From positions 1 through 35,075 of the forward strand of contig RFGU01000010.1 of the NCBI GenBank assembly GCA_003696955.1: 35,075 nucleotides of DNA. Reading direction: 5' to 3'. Positions 1-6,983 of the stretch are shown piece after piece. The stretch comes from Deltaproteobacteria bacterium. Its GTDB lineage: Bacteria > Myxococcota_A > Polyangia > Nannocystales > Nannocystaceae. Within the stretch, counting starts at the first letter, position 1, and each line of letters begins with the position of its first letter. The notes beneath the pieces are model-generated. The model ran no database searches. It had not been told where the DNA came from and was given only the letters and a program-made list of their open reading frames with translations. A program made the position numbers and the translations under genes.

Positions 1-151
1 CTTCTTGGCCGCGGTCTTCTTCTTGGCGGCGGTCTTCTTCTTGGCCGCGGTCTTCTTCTTGGCGGCGGTCTTCTTCTTGGCGGCGGTCTTCTTCTTGGCG
101 GCGGTCTTCTTCTTGGTGGCGGTCTTCTTCTTGGCCGCGGTCTTCTTCTTG
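1..151. repeat. 18-bp tandem repeat, about 8 copies
   Basis: Eight units, almost identical, encode KKKTAA on the minus strand. Variation is confined mostly to the Ala codons (GCC/GCG) and one Ala-to-Thr change. The array continues past the window edge, so copy number is unknown. Confidence 0.9.
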
Positions 152-1290
152 CGTTCGCGTTCCTTCTGCTTGCGGAGGCGCTCGCGCTCCTTCTCCTTGC
201 GAATCTTCTCGCGCTCCTTCTGCTTTCGGAGGCGCTCGCGTTCCTTCTGCTTTCGGAGGCGCTCGCGCTCCTTCTGCTTTCGGAGGCGCTCGCGCTCCTT
301 CTGCTTGCGGAGCTTCTCGCGTTCCTTCTGCTTGCGGATCTTCTCGCGCTCCTTCTCCTTGCGGAGGCGCTCGCGTTCCTTCTGCTTGCGGATCTTCTCG
401 CGCTCCTTCTGCTTGCGGAGGCGCTCGCGTTCCTTCTCCTTGCGCTTGCGCTCGCGCTCGGCCTCCCGTTCCTTGCGTTTGCGTTCGCGCTCGGCCTCCC
501 GTTCCTTTCGCTTGCGCTCGCGTTCGGCCTCCCGTTCCTTTCGCTTGCGCTCGCGTTCGGCCTCCCGCTCGGCGGCCCGACGCTGCCGTTCGGCCTCCCG
601 CTCCTTCCGGCGTCGCTCTCGCTCTTCCTCCCGGCGCTTGCGCTCCTCCTCCCGACGTCGCTCGCGTTCGAGGCGAGCTTCCTCCTCCTTGCGCTTGCGC
701 TCCTCGAGTTCTCGGCGTCTTGCTTCCTCCTCTTCCCGCTGCTTGCGCTCCCGCTCGGCGGCGATTTCCTCGGGCGTCGGTCCGAGTTCGAGGCCGAGGA
801 GCTGGCGCACCTCGTCGGCCGGCACCGGATCACCCTCGAGCTCTTCGGGGGTGGTTCCACGGTCGTGGATCAGCACGCGCCGCACGTTGTCCCGGAAGGT
901 GATCTCCACCTTCTGCTCGCCAAGGACCTCGCTGACGAACCCCACGCCGAAGGTGGGGTGCACGACCACACGGTGGAGATCGAGGCGAACCTTGGGCGTG
1001 TAGCGGACGGCGCGCTCGACGTCGTAGGTGGCCATGCCCTCGATCCAGTCCAGCTTGACCGACGGATCCTGGGGCTTCGTAGCGGTCGGTGCCGCCGGCG
1101 TCTCGCGATCCCGCGGCTTACGGTACTTGTGGGTGTCGCCGCAGACCACGCACTGGGCCGTGTTGATCTCGCCGCCGTAGCTCTCCACGACGACGTGTTG
1201 GGTGTCCGCGCGGCATTTGGGGCAGTAGCCTTCGACCTCGCCACCGCTGTCGCTCTGCCCGCCGAAGTGACTCTCGAAGATCTGGTCCAT
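1..1290 (-). CDS. Zinc-ribbon / Tudor-like protein with charged helix and histone H1-like tail (C-terminus cut by window edge)
   Basis: The minus frame is open from ATG at 1290 to the left edge (430 residues, no stop), so the C-terminus is missing. AGGGA lies just upstream of the start. Domains in order: a zinc ribbon (C23, C26, C47, C50); a linker; a small beta domain around residues 100-145 with 'VVVHPTFGVGFV' and 'VEITFRDN', resembling the CarD/CdnL RNA-polymerase-interaction domain or the PcrA/UvrD C-terminal Tudor domain; a roughly 200-residue Glu/Arg/Lys-rich region expected to form a single charged helix; then at least eight KKKTAA units from about residue 381. The tail is like histone H1-type DNA-binding tails. 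A nucleic-acid or RNA-polymerase-associated role is inferred; no exact family is recognised. The neighbouring chemoreceptor-like gene is co-directional, 173 bases upstream. Confidence 0.85.
   Translation of the reverse strand, partial: MDQIFESHFGGQSDSGGEVEGYCPKCRADTQHVVVESYGGEINTAQCVVCGDTHKYRKPRDRETPAAPTATKPQDPSVKLDWIEGMATYDVERAVRYTPKVRLDLHRVVVHPTFGVGFVSEVLGEQKVEITFRDNVRRVLIHDRGTTPEELEGDPVPADEVRQLLGLELGPTPEEIAAERERKQREEEEARRRELEERKRKEEEARLERERRREEERKRREEERERRRKEREAERQRRAAEREAERERKRKEREAERERKRKEREAERERKRKEREAERERKRKEKERERLRKQKEREKIRKQKERERLRKEKEREKIRKQKEREKLRKQKERERLRKQKERERLRKQKERERLRKQKEREKIRKEKERERLRKQKERERKKKTAAKKKTATKKKTAAKKKTAAKKKTAAKKKTAAKKKTAAKKKTAAKK
152..448. repeat. 27-bp tandem repeat, about 11 copies
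   Basis: Eleven degenerate 27-bp units encode nonapeptides of the type ERERLRKQK on the minus strand. Differences include Leu/Ile, Gln/Glu and synonymous CGA/CGC changes. It directly abuts the 18-bp array and lies inside the same reading frame. Confidence 0.85.
449..580. repeat. 33-bp tandem repeat, about 4 copies
   Basis: Four units of 33 bp encode hendecapeptides of the type ERERKRKEREA. The period changes from 27 to 33 bp at about 448, so the charged helix is built from two different tandem expansions. Confidence 0.75.
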
Positions 1291-1463: not shown

Positions 1464-2243
1464 TCATTGAGATAACTTGAATTTCGAGGATATCGCCCGA
1501 TCTCCGGGCAGGATGCGTCGCATCTGCGCCGTGCGTTCGGCGAGGGCCCCGAGTTCGCGAAAGACCAGCCGAAACGCCTTGCCGTGCTCACCGGCCTGGG
1601 CGGCGAGGATGTTGCCGTTGAGGGCGAGCAGTTGCAGGCGTTGGGAGAGATCGTCGAGAAGGCGACGCAGATCGGACAGGGTCTGGTCGCCGAGTCGGGC
1701 TTCGGGGGCATGGGTCCGCACGCCGGCCGTCAGCATCTCCGCCAATCGCCGGAGTCGGTCGATCCCCCGGTGGACCTCGACGATCCCCACGATGACGTCC
1801 CCGCCGGTCGAAAGCCGCAGGGGCCGGGCCGCGCTGACCGTGGCTGCACGGGCGGTGTGGTCGATGGTGCCCGAGAACGATCCCCCTTGCCGGAGCACCT
1901 CGTCGACCAGGACGGCCGGCGCGAAGGCGCCGGGGGCGAGAACGGTTCCGTCGTCGTCGCCCGGCAGCGACAGGACGCAGCGGTTGCCCGCGTAGAGGGT
2001 GACACCGCAGCCGATCTGCCGCGACAAGCGGGAGAGTTGGCCCTGTTGGTCCTCGAGGGGACGCCCCGCCACGGTCAGGCGTCCGTCCCGCCGTTCCACG
2101 GGGCCCTGGGCAGCGACATGTTCGACCACCAGCTCCAGCGCTCCGGCCAGCCGTTCCCGCTCGGCCTCGATCAGCCGTTCGAGCACGGCGCCGACGGCGG
2201 GATCGTCGGTCGGTACGGGGTCGGCGGACGCGATAGCAGCCAC
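1464..2243 (-). CDS. Soluble Cache-like / truncated methyl-accepting chemotaxis-like protein
   Basis: 259 residues from GTG at 2243. An open frame continues upstream to 2573 but would overlap gltX and looks non-coding. The GTG follows an extended -10-like TGGTAGAAT by 8 bases, which supports this start. An N-terminal helix is followed by a PAS/Cache-like sensor region: 'IGCGVTLYAGNRCVLSLPG', then 'VLRQGGSFSGT' and 'GGDVIVGIVEVHRG'. The C-terminus has a degenerate chemoreceptor hairpin tip, 'LQLLALNGNILAAQAGEHG', against the usual 'TNLLALNAAIEAARAGE'. No transmembrane helix is seen, and the protein ends soon after the tip, so half of the normal signalling hairpin is absent. A cytosolic ligand sensor contacting chemotaxis arrays or CheA/CheW-like partners is inferred. 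Confidence 0.8.
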   Translation of the reverse strand: MAAIASADPVPTDDPAVGAVLERLIEAERERLAGALELVVEHVAAQGPVERRDGRLTVAGRPLEDQQGQLSRLSRQIGCGVTLYAGNRCVLSLPGDDDGTVLAPGAFAPAVLVDEVLRQGGSFSGTIDHTARAATVSAARPLRLSTGGDVIVGIVEVHRGIDRLRRLAEMLTAGVRTHAPEARLGDQTLSDLRRLLDDLSQRLQLLALNGNILAAQAGEHGKAFRLVFRELGALAERTAQMRRILPGDRAISSKFKLSQ

Positions 2244-2251
2244 GGTGCGTG

Positions 2252-2260
2252 ATTCTACCA
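2252..2260 (-). promoter_or_regulatory. Extended -10 element of the chemotaxis-like gene
   Basis: Read on the minus strand the sequence is TGGTAGAAT, matching TGn-TANNNT. It ends 8 bases before the GTG at 2243, so transcription would begin at or beside the start codon. No convincing -35 is visible. Confidence 0.5.
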
Positions 2261-2517
2261 GGTCGCGGCCCGTCGCAGCGGCTCCCACGGGCAACCCGCC
2301 GCCGTCCCCGGATCGGCACGTCCGCCCCCCGCCCGGCGCCGGCGTGGTGGGCCGGTCTGCGCGGTCGCGCGGCCGGAAGAGAACCGTCGTTCCGGAGCGT
2401 CCGGTCCCCCGCGTCCAACGAATCCCCGACGCAGCGGCTCCGTCGTCGTCGGCGCTTCGTCCGAGCGCCCACGGAGAGGTTCGCTCCGGCTCCGGGCTGT
2501 GGTACGCAGCGGCGGCC

Positions 2518-3987
<1,470 letters not shown>

Positions 3988-3996
3988 GTTCCGTCG

Positions 3997-4935
3997 TCAG
4001 CCCTGGGGTGGTCGGGGGACGGCGCGCAGTCCCGTGAACGAGACGTGGTCCAACTCGGGGAAGCCGCGGCCGGCCGCGTCGTGGGCGGCAGGTCTTCTCC
4101 CGAGGCGCCCCACGAAGACGCGCAACCGGGGCTCGACGACCACGGGGCCTTCGCGGCGGATCGGCAGTCGCACGAGGGTCGGCGTTCCAAGGGGGCCTGG
4201 GGCGGCGGGTAGGGCCCGTCCCGTACGGCCTTCGACGAGGGCCCCGATCCAGGCCCGCGCATCCGGTCGCGACGCGGCCGCCTCCTGGATGGCGGTGCGC
4301 CAGCCACAGGCCGGAAGCCACGAGGGAGCGCAGATGAACGCGAGGTCCCCCTTGGCCACCGAGAGCCCGGTGGTGATCGCCTCGTCGACGGGCGCGTCCC
4401 GGTGCAGGTGTACGGACCGGAAGGATCCGTGGATCGTGCGCAGGAAGGCGGCCGTGCCGTCTTCGGATCCGCGATCGACCACGATGAGTTCCCACGCCGG
4501 CCGTACCGATTCGGCGGCGAGCACGGCCACCAAGCGCGACAGGGCGGCGAGATCGTCGCGGGTCGGGACCACCAGGGAGATCGGCCGGTCACCTCGGACC
4601 CGGGGGGCCGGCACGCAGAGGCGGAACCGTCCGCCGTCGACGCCGACGGTGCCGCGCACCTCGAGGGGCCCGTCGTCGCCCCACAGGTCCGGATCGTCGT
4701 CTTCCTGGCGGGTGTAGACCAGCACGAGCCCGTCGGCGCGCACGACCGAGAGTGCGGCGTCGATCGTCCCGTGGTCGGCGAGCACCAGGTCGGCGGCCTC
4801 CCCCGGGGAGAGGGGACGGCGGGGCAGGAGGGCGCCGCCGATCCCGTCGGCGGTGAGGTCCACGCAGCGAAGGCGGCGCAGATCGGGGGCGACCGAGGCG
4901 AGCAGGGCGGACAGGATCCGGCGCTTGGAGGCCAT
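3997..4935 (-). CDS. Degenerate family 2 glycosyltransferase-like protein
   Basis: 312 residues from ATG 4935 ('MASKRRILSALL'). The first 115 residues are unrecognised. From about residue 118 there is a GT-A fold signature, 'ISLVVPTRDDLAALSRLVAVL', then 'WELIVVDRGSEDGTAAFL', which corresponds to the 'VDDGSTDGT' nucleotide-sugar loop. The region where GT2 enzymes carry the metal-binding DXD reads 'GDLAFICAPSWLP', so DXD is missing. The C-terminus is short and ends with 'LDHVSFTGLRAVPRPPQG'. It may be an inactive or altered transferase. No Shine-Dalgarno is clear. It is convergent with gltX and divergent from the HD-GYP gene. Confidence 0.8.
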   Translation of the reverse strand: MASKRRILSALLASVAPDLRRLRCVDLTADGIGGALLPRRPLSPGEAADLVLADHGTIDAALSVVRADGLVLVYTRQEDDDPDLWGDDGPLEVRGTVGVDGGRFRLCVPAPRVRGDRPISLVVPTRDDLAALSRLVAVLAAESVRPAWELIVVDRGSEDGTAAFLRTIHGSFRSVHLHRDAPVDEAITTGLSVAKGDLAFICAPSWLPACGWRTAIQEAAASRPDARAWIGALVEGRTGRALPAAPGPLGTPTLVRLPIRREGPVVVEPRLRVFVGRLGRRPAAHDAAGRGFPELDHVSFTGLRAVPRPPQG

Positions 4936-5046
4936 GCATCGTCTATGGCCCCCTCGAAGGCGCGCCGGTGGGACCAGCACGGGACGCTCGCGGGGCGCCC
5001 GGCTCGCCGAGATACCTCCGGTGGCCCACGGCGGGCCGGCCGTGTC

Positions 5047-5052
5047 TATACT
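5047..5052 (+). promoter_or_regulatory. -10 hexamer TATACT before the HD-GYP gene
   Basis: TATACT lies 8 bases before ATG 5061. There is no Shine-Dalgarno between them, consistent with a leaderless mRNA. The -35 region is not convincing. Confidence 0.5.
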
Positions 5053-5060
5053 CGGGGCAG

Positions 5061-6983
5061 ATGGTCGAGCGATCCACCGGCGTGCCGCGGGCCTCTTCGG
5101 TCGTCGACGACGCGTCCGGGGGCGGCGAAGCGGTGCTTCGGACCTTCGGCGACGTGATGGCGCACGTACGCACCGTCTATGCGGACCGGGGCACCGTCAC
5201 GGAGCTACCGGGTGGGGCGATCCTGGACACGGGCAGGGCGGACGTCTGGCTCGACGACGGGAGCGGGTCGGAGGAGATCCCGCGGGACGCGGCCGTGGTG
5301 TGCGTGGGTGCGGAGCCGTCGCCTCGACGTCTCGCGTCGTTTCGCGGTCGCAGCGTAAGCTTCCTGCCCCTGCCGATCTCCGCCCCGACGGCGGCGGCGG
5401 TCGTCGCCACCGCGCTCGGTGCCGCCGACCGCGGCCACGCCATGGAGACGACGTCGCGGTTGCTCGACATCGGGCTCGCCCTGAACGCCGAACGGGACCC
5501 GGGGCGGCTGCTCGATCTCATCTTGACCCATGCTCGCCGGATCACCGGGGCCGACGCCGGAAGCATCTACCTCGTGGAGGAGGATGGGCGCCGCCTGCGG
5601 TTCAAGGTGGCGCAGAACGACTCGGTGGAGGCCGACTTCTCGGAGTTCTCGGTGCCCGTGACCGAGGAGAGCATCGTCGGGGCGTGCGTGGTCTGCGGCC
5701 AGACGGTCAACATCGCCGATCTCTACGAGGATCCGACGGCGCTCGGGCGTACGTTCCGCCACGACCGCCGCTTCGACGAGCGCTTCGGCTACCAGACGCG
5801 CTCGGTCCTGACGACCCCCTTGCGGCCGCCGGGTGGCGACGTGGTCGGGGTCTTGCAGCTGATCAACGCCAAGGAGGGCGACGGCCCCCTGCGGGGCGAG
5901 GACTTCCGCCGGCGCGTGCGGCCCTTCTCCCTGGCGGACGAACGGTTGTGCGAGGCGCTCGCCGCCCAGGCGGCGGTCGCCCTCGAGAACGCGCGGCTCT
6001 ACGAGGAGATCCGGGGGCTCTTCGAGGGCTTCGTGCGCGCGTCGGTCCACGCCATCGAACAGCGCGACCCCACCACCAGCGGCCACAGCCAGCGCGTGGC
6101 CGATCTGACCGTGGAACTGGCCAAGGTGGTCGATCGCGTGGACGACGGCCCACTGGCTCCGCTGCGTTTCGACCGGGAGGATCTGCGCCAGATCGAGTAC
6201 GCGGGGCTCTTGCACGACTTCGGCAAGGTCGGCGTGCGGGAGGAGGTGCTCGTCAAGGCGAAGAAGCTCCACCCGGCCCAACTCGACCGGATCCTCTCCC
6301 GCCTCGACCACATGCGGACGGCGGTCCACCTCGACGTCGCACGCAAGCTCATCGAACGCTTGCGCGCGGGCTGGACGGGCGGCGAAGAGGACCTGGAGCG
6401 CGAGCTTTCCCAGCGCCTGGCCGACGTGGACGCCTGGGCGAAGGCCGTGCTCGAGGCCAACGAGCCCACCCTGCTCGCCGCCGAACCCGAGGCGCGGATC
6501 CAGGAACTTGCGCGGCTCGAGTTCCGCGACGGGGACGGGCGCCGGATCCGGATCCTCGAGGACGAGGAGGTCCGGGCCCTGTTGGTGCGCAAGGGCAGCC
6601 TGACCGACGAGGAGCGCGCCCAGATCCAAAGCCACGTCACCCACACGTACAACTTCCTCGTGCGGATCCCCTGGGGCAAGCAGCTTTCGCGCCTTCCCGA
6701 CATCGCGGCGAAGCACCACGAGTACCTGGACGGAACGGGCTATCCCAATCGGTTGGGGGCCGAGGACATCCCGGTGGAGACGCGGATGATGACGATCTCG
6801 GACATCTTCGACGCGTTGACGGCGGCCGACCGGCCCTACAAGAAGGCGGTCCCCGTCCGCCATGCCCTCGACATCCTCGATGCGGAACGTCGAAATGGCC
6901 GCATCGACGCCGCGCTGCTCGAGGTGTTCGTCGAGGCCCGGGTCTTTCGGGCCATCGGGCTCGATCTGGAGGGCCCCCGGTGA
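5061..6983 (+). CDS. GAF / HD-GYP domain protein, probable cyclic-di-GMP phosphodiesterase
   Basis: 640 residues from ATG 5061. The first 130 residues are not assigned. A GAF sensor domain spans about residues 133-310 ('ARRITGADAGSIYLVEEDGR'). The HD-GYP domain follows, with the HD motif 'LLHDFGKVGV' (H385, D386) and the signature 'HHEYLDGTGYP' (H552-P562). 'MMTISDIFDALTAADRPYKKA' is also typical. The catalytic residues look intact, so hydrolysis of cyclic-di-GMP is expected. The spacing from HD to HHE is about 166 residues, some 110 longer than usual, because of an insertion at about residues 403-512 of Glu/Arg/Leu-rich, probably helical sequence. The gene overlaps ybeY by GTGA. The PilZ protein at 10654-11151 could be a reader of the same signal. 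Confidence 0.93.
   Translation: MVERSTGVPRASSVVDDASGGGEAVLRTFGDVMAHVRTVYADRGTVTELPGGAILDTGRADVWLDDGSGSEEIPRDAAVVCVGAEPSPRRLASFRGRSVSFLPLPISAPTAAAVVATALGAADRGHAMETTSRLLDIGLALNAERDPGRLLDLILTHARRITGADAGSIYLVEEDGRRLRFKVAQNDSVEADFSEFSVPVTEESIVGACVVCGQTVNIADLYEDPTALGRTFRHDRRFDERFGYQTRSVLTTPLRPPGGDVVGVLQLINAKEGDGPLRGEDFRRRVRPFSLADERLCEALAAQAAVALENARLYEEIRGLFEGFVRASVHAIEQRDPTTSGHSQRVADLTVELAKVVDRVDDGPLAPLRFDREDLRQIEYAGLLHDFGKVGVREEVLVKAKKLHPAQLDRILSRLDHMRTAVHLDVARKLIERLRAGWTGGEEDLERELSQRLADVDAWAKAVLEANEPTLLAAEPEARIQELARLEFRDGDGRRIRILEDEEVRALLVRKGSLTDEERAQIQSHVTHTYNFLVRIPWGKQLSRLPDIAAKHHEYLDGTGYPNRLGAEDIPVETRMMTISDIFDALTAADRPYKKAVPVRHALDILDAERRNGRIDAALLEVFVEARVFRAIGLDLEGPR

Follow-up and report, generated by a model that had tools for sequence, protein, structure and literature searches.

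A minus-strand gene at the left edge of a 35,075-nucleotide stretch of Nannocystaceae DNA (contig C101, hereafter the window) encodes, in a single chain, a zinc ribbon, a predicted Tudor barrel, a long helix rich in Glu, Arg, and Lys (E/R/K), and a Lys-rich, histone H1-like tail. On balance, we regard the product as probably the long form of a Myxococcota family of RNA-polymerase-binding, DNA-anchored factors.

A head-helix-tail gene at a contig edge

The reading frame runs from an ATG at position 1290 to position 1, and 430 codons (430 amino acids) are visible. The N terminus, MDQIFESHFGG, is conserved in Nannocystaceae, and both the start and the order of the parts were the same in every Nannocystaceae relative of sufficient length. 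We conclude that the head-helix-tail gene is real, and neither a chance reading frame nor an assembly artefact, because its start and part order recur in those relatives. The gene, its parts, and two neighbors are as follows.

1..1290, minus strand: whole gene as seen, from the open reading frame and the sequence; the contig starts at window position 1 and its edge cuts the 3′ end
1120..1239, minus strand: zinc ribbon, residues 18 to 57 (C23, C26, C47, and C50), from four invariant Cys, an AlphaFold2 beta-hairpin model, and sub-threshold Pfam zinc ribbons
859..978, minus strand: predicted PcrA/UvrD-type Tudor barrel, residues 105 to 144 (H111, F114, F132, R138, and L140), from AlphaFold2, hhalign, Foldseek, and ranking of PDB profile matches
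778..819, minus strand: C-terminal capping helix of the head, residues 158 to 171 (158 to 169 helical in AlphaFold2), conserved in Nannocystaceae and directly before the GP(T/S)PEE start of the spacer
151..771, minus strand: E/R/K single-alpha-helix spacer, residues 174 to 380 (207 residues), from the salt-bridge score, the charge profile, and tandem 27-bp and 33-bp units
1..150, minus strand: (KKKTAA)n histone-H1-like tail from residue 381, eight units visible in an 18-bp tandem array cut by the contig edge
1464..2573, minus strand: upstream neighbor, MCP-signal-like protein (Pfam MCPsignal at 33.4 bits, just below the cut-off of 34.6); an MCP-like neighbor is kept in most relatives
1999..3987, plus strand: open reading frame containing gltX, which clusters with the neighbor in 14 relatives; the Nannocystis neighbor matches tRNA-synt_1c

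A plus-strand open reading frame at positions 1 to 1440 (479 codons with LLLGRG repeats) was rejected as a gene, being the mirror of the minus-strand repeat. A scan for sigma-70 promoters and terminators upstream of the gene found none.

The visible tail is incomplete because the contig edge truncates the gene. The host genome (4.36 Mb in 268 contigs, 94.5% complete) has a CAAX-protease gene on the minus strand at C9:18793-19506, in the right orientation to follow the missing 3′ end, and the end of contig C9 carries, on the same strand, KTAAKKKTSAKKKTSAKKKTSAKKKTAAKKKTKRRSGSRR followed by a stop, the C-terminal residues reading ...KKKTAAKKKTKRRSGSRR-stop. Since a CAAX protease follows the orthologue in relatives and sits here in the right orientation, the end of C9 is probably the missing C terminus of the ribbon-Tudor gene. 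No exact end-to-end overlap was found between the ends of C101 and C9.

The gene order gltX, MCP-like gene, ribbon-Tudor gene, and CAAX protease is common to relatives. These neighbors were also considered as a guide to function; they are conserved but point to no role in transcription or repair. Farther along, positions 4000 to 4980 on the minus strand encode a family-2 glycosyltransferase-like protein that also adjoins gltX in several relatives, and positions 4968 to 6983 on the plus strand hold, as read by eye, a frame with GAF-like and HD-GYP-like parts (HHEYLDGTGYP) and then a YbeY-like frame (HGLCHLAGYDH).

Zinc ribbon and Tudor barrel

No Pfam or NCBIfam model reached its cut-off in a scan of the protein, which bears out the first-pass annotation in finding no standard family to name, and a PDB profile search with the whole head found no relative. 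Sub-threshold matches mostly agreed, with zinc ribbons for the first part and the CarD RID, the PcrA/UvrD Tudor, DUF3553, and KOW for the barrel. The four cysteines had been picked out as a zinc ribbon at the start, and all four were invariant in 23/23 aligned sequences. AlphaFold2 placed them as two CxxC knuckles on beta-hairpins (block pLDDT 83 to 85), which would bind metal. In most relatives, the best sub-threshold Pfam match of the ribbon was CPxCG_zf (PF19769), and other zinc ribbons also matched; the ribbon shares CPxC...CxxC with the CPxCG-related zinc fingers but matches only positions 1 to about 55 of the 183 in that model, below the curated cut-off. The head as a whole was modeled as ribbon hairpins plus a barrel with a mean pLDDT of 79, the barrel blocks reaching 90 to 95.

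When residues 79 to 171 were modeled alone with a more diverse alignment, the mean pLDDT was 94.5 and the pTM was 0.84, so that the Tudor-like region of the first-pass annotation was predicted to fold as a barrel with pLDDT above 90. Foldseek favored the C-terminal domain (CTD) of UvrD, with top probabilities for 7egs (0.91; UvrD CTD on the RNA polymerase lobe) and 7egt (0.85; UvrD CTD with UvrB), and none of its E-values was significant, which is no surprise for a barrel as small as this (about 45 residues). A barrel profile searched against 177,635 PDB sequences ranked UvrD-type helicases 1 to 4 (E, 0.06 to 0.18). For profile-profile comparison, PcrA/UvrD Tudors and CarD/Mfd RIDs were taken from 24 related genomes and located by Pfam position, the barrel set was defined by alignment columns, and the short-form set was gathered through a pattern search. 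In hhalign, the long-form barrels matched the PcrA/UvrD Tudors with a probability of 95.7% and a score of 40.8, and the short-form barrels did so with 96.5% and 47.5. Scores against the Mfd RID were 18.0 (long form) and 15.8 (short form), and those against CdnL were 11.8 and 11.6. As controls, 60 column-shuffled Tudor profiles scored at most 18.4, and the accepted homologues Mfd and CdnL scored 41.1 against each other.

Single-sequence Pfam scans were less discriminating, with CarD_TRCF_RID matching 10 of 32 barrels and PcrA_UvrD_tudor matching 7 of 32, all weakly. The Tudor model PF21196 gave a short-form relative 20.7 bits against a curated cut-off of 23.9 and had no match in a scan of the window protein. 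The CarD RID was rejected as the nearest kin of the barrel on the profile scores, although it remains a weak match in the single-sequence scans. The barrel resembles the C-terminal Tudor of PcrA/UvrD (PF21196; PDB 5DMA and 7EGS) in an HxxFGxG barrel over about 40 columns and in counterparts of H681, W684, F705, K712, and L714 that are kept in kind; it differs in standing without a helicase, in being fused to a zinc ribbon, in having Arg at K712, and in falling below the Pfam cut-off. With Foldseek and PDB-profile E-values above 0.05, it is the combination of ranking, profile comparison, and residue matches that carries the fold assignment. We conclude that sequence comparison makes a strong case for a PcrA/UvrD-type Tudor and not clearly for a CarD/Mfd-type domain, such that of the original description, "CarD- or PcrA-like," the second half was favored by hhalign, PDB profile, and Foldseek and the first half was not.

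In G. stearothermophilus PcrA, the single mutants H681A, W684A, K712A, and L714A severely lower RNA polymerase binding (PMC5397179). With the register fixed by the PDB 5DMA sequence, those residues align to H111, F114, R138, and L140 of the window protein, the two substitutions (W to F and K to R) being conservative, and the PcrA cage residue F705 corresponds to F132. H111, F114, F132, and R138 were invariant and L140 nearly so in the 23-sequence alignment; with both subfamilies taken together, the H and the two F residues were invariant and the R and L were at least 90% conserved. The PcrA Tudor recognizes [VIL]DxxTGE[VIL][VILT] in the SI1 domain of RpoB (PMC8318588), and the host RpoB carries the motif as VDENTGEVL. 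The DxxTGE core was found in 14 of 14 related RpoB sequences, some with F or Y as its opening residue, and a scan of 418,535 other residues turned up no copy of the strict motif. A genome search for a Tudor in the host UvrD gave no match, the helicase genes being fragmented over contigs. We conclude from the aligned residues and the RpoB motif that the head is fairly likely to bind RNA polymerase.

Two other roles for the head were weighed. PcrA Tudor binds UvrB and other partners via the same motif (PMC8318588), and the Foldseek match 7egt contains UvrB, such that the barrel might bind another peptide of the helicase-interaction type, for example in a UvrB-like repair factor, and the protein might be a repair scaffold or a PcrA/UvrD competitor rather than a transcription factor. 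We consider that unlikely, as the host UvrB locus lacks a match to TGE[VILM] while the host RpoB has the full motif, and as no repair genes lie nearby in relatives. Alternatively, the barrel and ribbon might act on nucleic acid or ribosomes in a general nucleoid or RNA-binding architectural protein, with the Tudor similarity being structural only. SH3-like barrels can bind nucleic acid (PMC5906684), the C-terminal half of the protein is very basic, and in a PDB profile search with the head, the ribbon weakly matched ribosomal L44e. The invariant residues are nevertheless the polymerase contacts of PcrA and not a generic basic surface, and the short forms keep the same residues without a tail, which implies that the conserved function is not that of the basic tail; we give this alternative, too, only a small chance.

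Predicted helical spacer and lysine-rich tail

The roughly 200 residues of Glu/Arg/Lys repeat reported by the first-pass annotation correspond to residues 174 to 380. Over residues 172 to 375, pairs of Glu with Arg or Lys at i/i+3 and i/i+4 exceeded the expectation from composition (z, 3.8), with none of 2,000 shuffles as high; the distal half alone scored lower (z, 1.9). The repeat of the basic half is nine residues long (KERERLRKQ) rather than seven, and so speaks against a coiled coil. The spacer is a predicted single alpha-helix; if helical throughout, it would reach about 31 nm. Counted per 20 residues, net charge lay between −2 and +2 until residue 280, rose to between +5 and +7 until residue 380, and reached +10 to +11 in the tail. 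Given its strongly basic charge, the distal half may itself contact DNA instead of keeping the head away from it. The proposal of a rigid helix that spaces the head from DNA stands as regards the E/R/K helix itself, but the helix is an addition of Nannocystaceae and not a trait of the family, and its distal half is basic. A eukaryotic counterpart in kind is the KER helix of CAF-1, which binds DNA and acts as a spacer (PMC10335832). Both are basic, E/K/R-rich single helices that join functional domains and may bind DNA as spacers; no sequence relation between them is known, and the helix here is bacterial, up to about 300 residues long, and followed by an H1-like tail.

The tail was correctly described as (KKKTAA)n and, in composition, as histone H1-like, in its visible and incomplete part. 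Complete tails of orthologues contain 36 to 53% Lys with Ala, Thr, or Pro, a composition that matches the C-terminal tail of H1-like proteins (about 40% Lys with Ala, Pro, or Thr). It is plausible, on the basis of charge, that the basic helix and tail anchor DNA.

The 18-bp KKKTAA repeat also occurs in unrelated genes of the host (L004 on C122, L006 on C257, L159 on C203, L158 on C135, and L160 on C82): in what looks like an N-terminal extension of topoisomerase I, in a frame that runs on into a Bcp-type peroxiredoxin, and at the C terminus of a short unnamed protein. Most copies lie at contig ends; the repeat is therefore a probable cause of the breaks in the assembly, and it may be able to move from one gene to another.

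Tandem 18-, 27-, and 33-bp arrays, a variable spacer length, and the existence of short and tail-only forms could mean that spacer and tail are neutral, low-complexity repeat expansions without function and that the head alone matters. The four 33-bp helix repeats, however, encode identical peptides, and 17 of 17 pairwise differences among them fall at third codon positions, which points to selection on the protein. Moreover, the head-helix-tail order and the basic charge are kept in the clade despite differing repeat sequences, and, in a tree of 37 sampled heads, a single branch separates the spacer group from the rest. We conclude that neutral expansion is distinctly improbable.

Three forms of the family and comparison with CarD

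The 171-residue head was 51 to 63% identical to its orthologues in those Nannocystaceae genomes that have one, and recognizable relatives were found in 51 of 59 near relatives and in 215 of 379 Myxococcota genomes. A scan of the genome collection with the long head returned Myxococcota-like records only, and a plasmid search with the short form returned no match. Three forms were distinguished. The short form, ribbon plus Tudor in about 150 amino acids, was present in 18 of 18 readable members from other classes of the phylum and in family f11 of the same class. The tail form adds a Lys/Ala/Pro-rich, mostly basic tail and occurs in other Polyangia families (f2, f3, f4, f6, f10, and f16). The long form, with an E/R/K spacer of about 100 to 300 residues and a Lys-rich tail in every sequence whose contig extends far enough, accounted for 22 of 22 distinct Nannocystaceae sequences, the spacer length varying widely. 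A search of Myxococcota for the domain order seen at first pass thus recovered it in full in Nannocystaceae only, other lineages having short or tail forms. The spacer group formed one side of one branch with support of 100/100, and a single gain of the spacer, by a protein already equipped with a tail, is the most parsimonious history.

Four tail-form members (L070, L071, L072, and L074) connect the Tudor to the basic tail by long stretches that are acidic or mixed, a different kind of linker from the E/R/K helix. The nearest relative of the host, in the same genus (G001; 95% complete), had no match to the head. The long form is the single family member in the host genome, which is without the short paralogue present in most relatives. 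No description of the ribbon-Tudor family was found in the open-access literature. We conclude that the family is conserved in myxobacteria and, as far as that literature goes, undescribed, and that its novelty is a putative polymerase-docking Tudor in a new architecture.

The mechanism that we propose for a polymerase-binding, DNA-anchored factor is as follows. The Tudor would dock where PcrA/UvrD does, at the "helicase interaction motif" of the beta subunit of RNA polymerase (SI1/lobe), and the zinc ribbon would make contact with RNA polymerase or with nucleic acid. DNA would be gripped, without sequence specificity, by the H1-like tail and the basic distal part of the helix; by analogy with the KER helix of CAF-1, a helix lying along DNA would cover about 90 bp. 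RNA polymerase would in this way be tied to nearby nucleoid DNA. If the docking site is shared, it follows that the protein would compete directly with PcrA/UvrD for the same RpoB peptide.

A purely functional analogy is to CarD of Myxococcus, which acts with CarG. CarD likewise joins a polymerase-binding, Tudor-like head to a K/A/P-rich, HMGA/H1-like tail, and zinc is involved in both systems, through zinc-bound CarG there and through a ribbon in cis here. The window protein differs in its Tudor subtype, in carrying the ribbon in the same chain, in its long rigid spacer, and in the lack of a metzincin-like CarG. For CarD-CarG, Cystobacterineae are the only reported source (PMC9304148), whereas the ribbon-Tudor form was found in lineages other than Cystobacterineae. 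The barrel is not of the RID type, and the neighbors are an MCP-like gene and a CAAX protease with no adjacent CarG. Strict membership in CarD_CdnL_TRCF, with binding to the beta1 domain as for CarD and Mfd, is highly improbable: the weak CarD_TRCF_RID matches reach a best E-value of 0.00036, and one orthologue matches model positions 1 to 23 at 21.2 bits, but in another scan the match covered just the first 21 of the model's 57 positions and stayed below cut-off, the profile scores against Mfd and CdnL are near the shuffled range, and the genome already has RID proteins in Mfd and two tail-less CdnL-like proteins (50 to 65 bits). Failing membership in the CarD family does not weaken the claim of working like CarD, and the best reading, by analogy, is a CarD-like design built from different parts.

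A bolder version, which we put forward tentatively and hold to be doubtful, is that in Polyangia, for which CarD-CarG is reported to be lacking, the family independently became its lineage's nucleoid-tethered RNA polymerase factor by way of the PcrA/UvrD docking site and, in Nannocystaceae, a rigid single-helix ruler, anchoring polymerase and limiting the access of UvrD. If the polymerase-binding reading is true, the family would provide a protein that is not a helicase yet docks on RNA polymerase at the PcrA/UvrD site, as well as a bacterial polymerase-binding head joined by a long single alpha-helix to a histone-like tail. Head alone, head with tail, and head with ruler and tail, all in one phylum, make a natural series in which the contributions of a rigid spacer and of an H1-like tail to a transcription factor could be told apart, and the three forms bear on whether myxobacteria evolved CarD-like tethering of polymerase to the nucleoid on more than one occasion.
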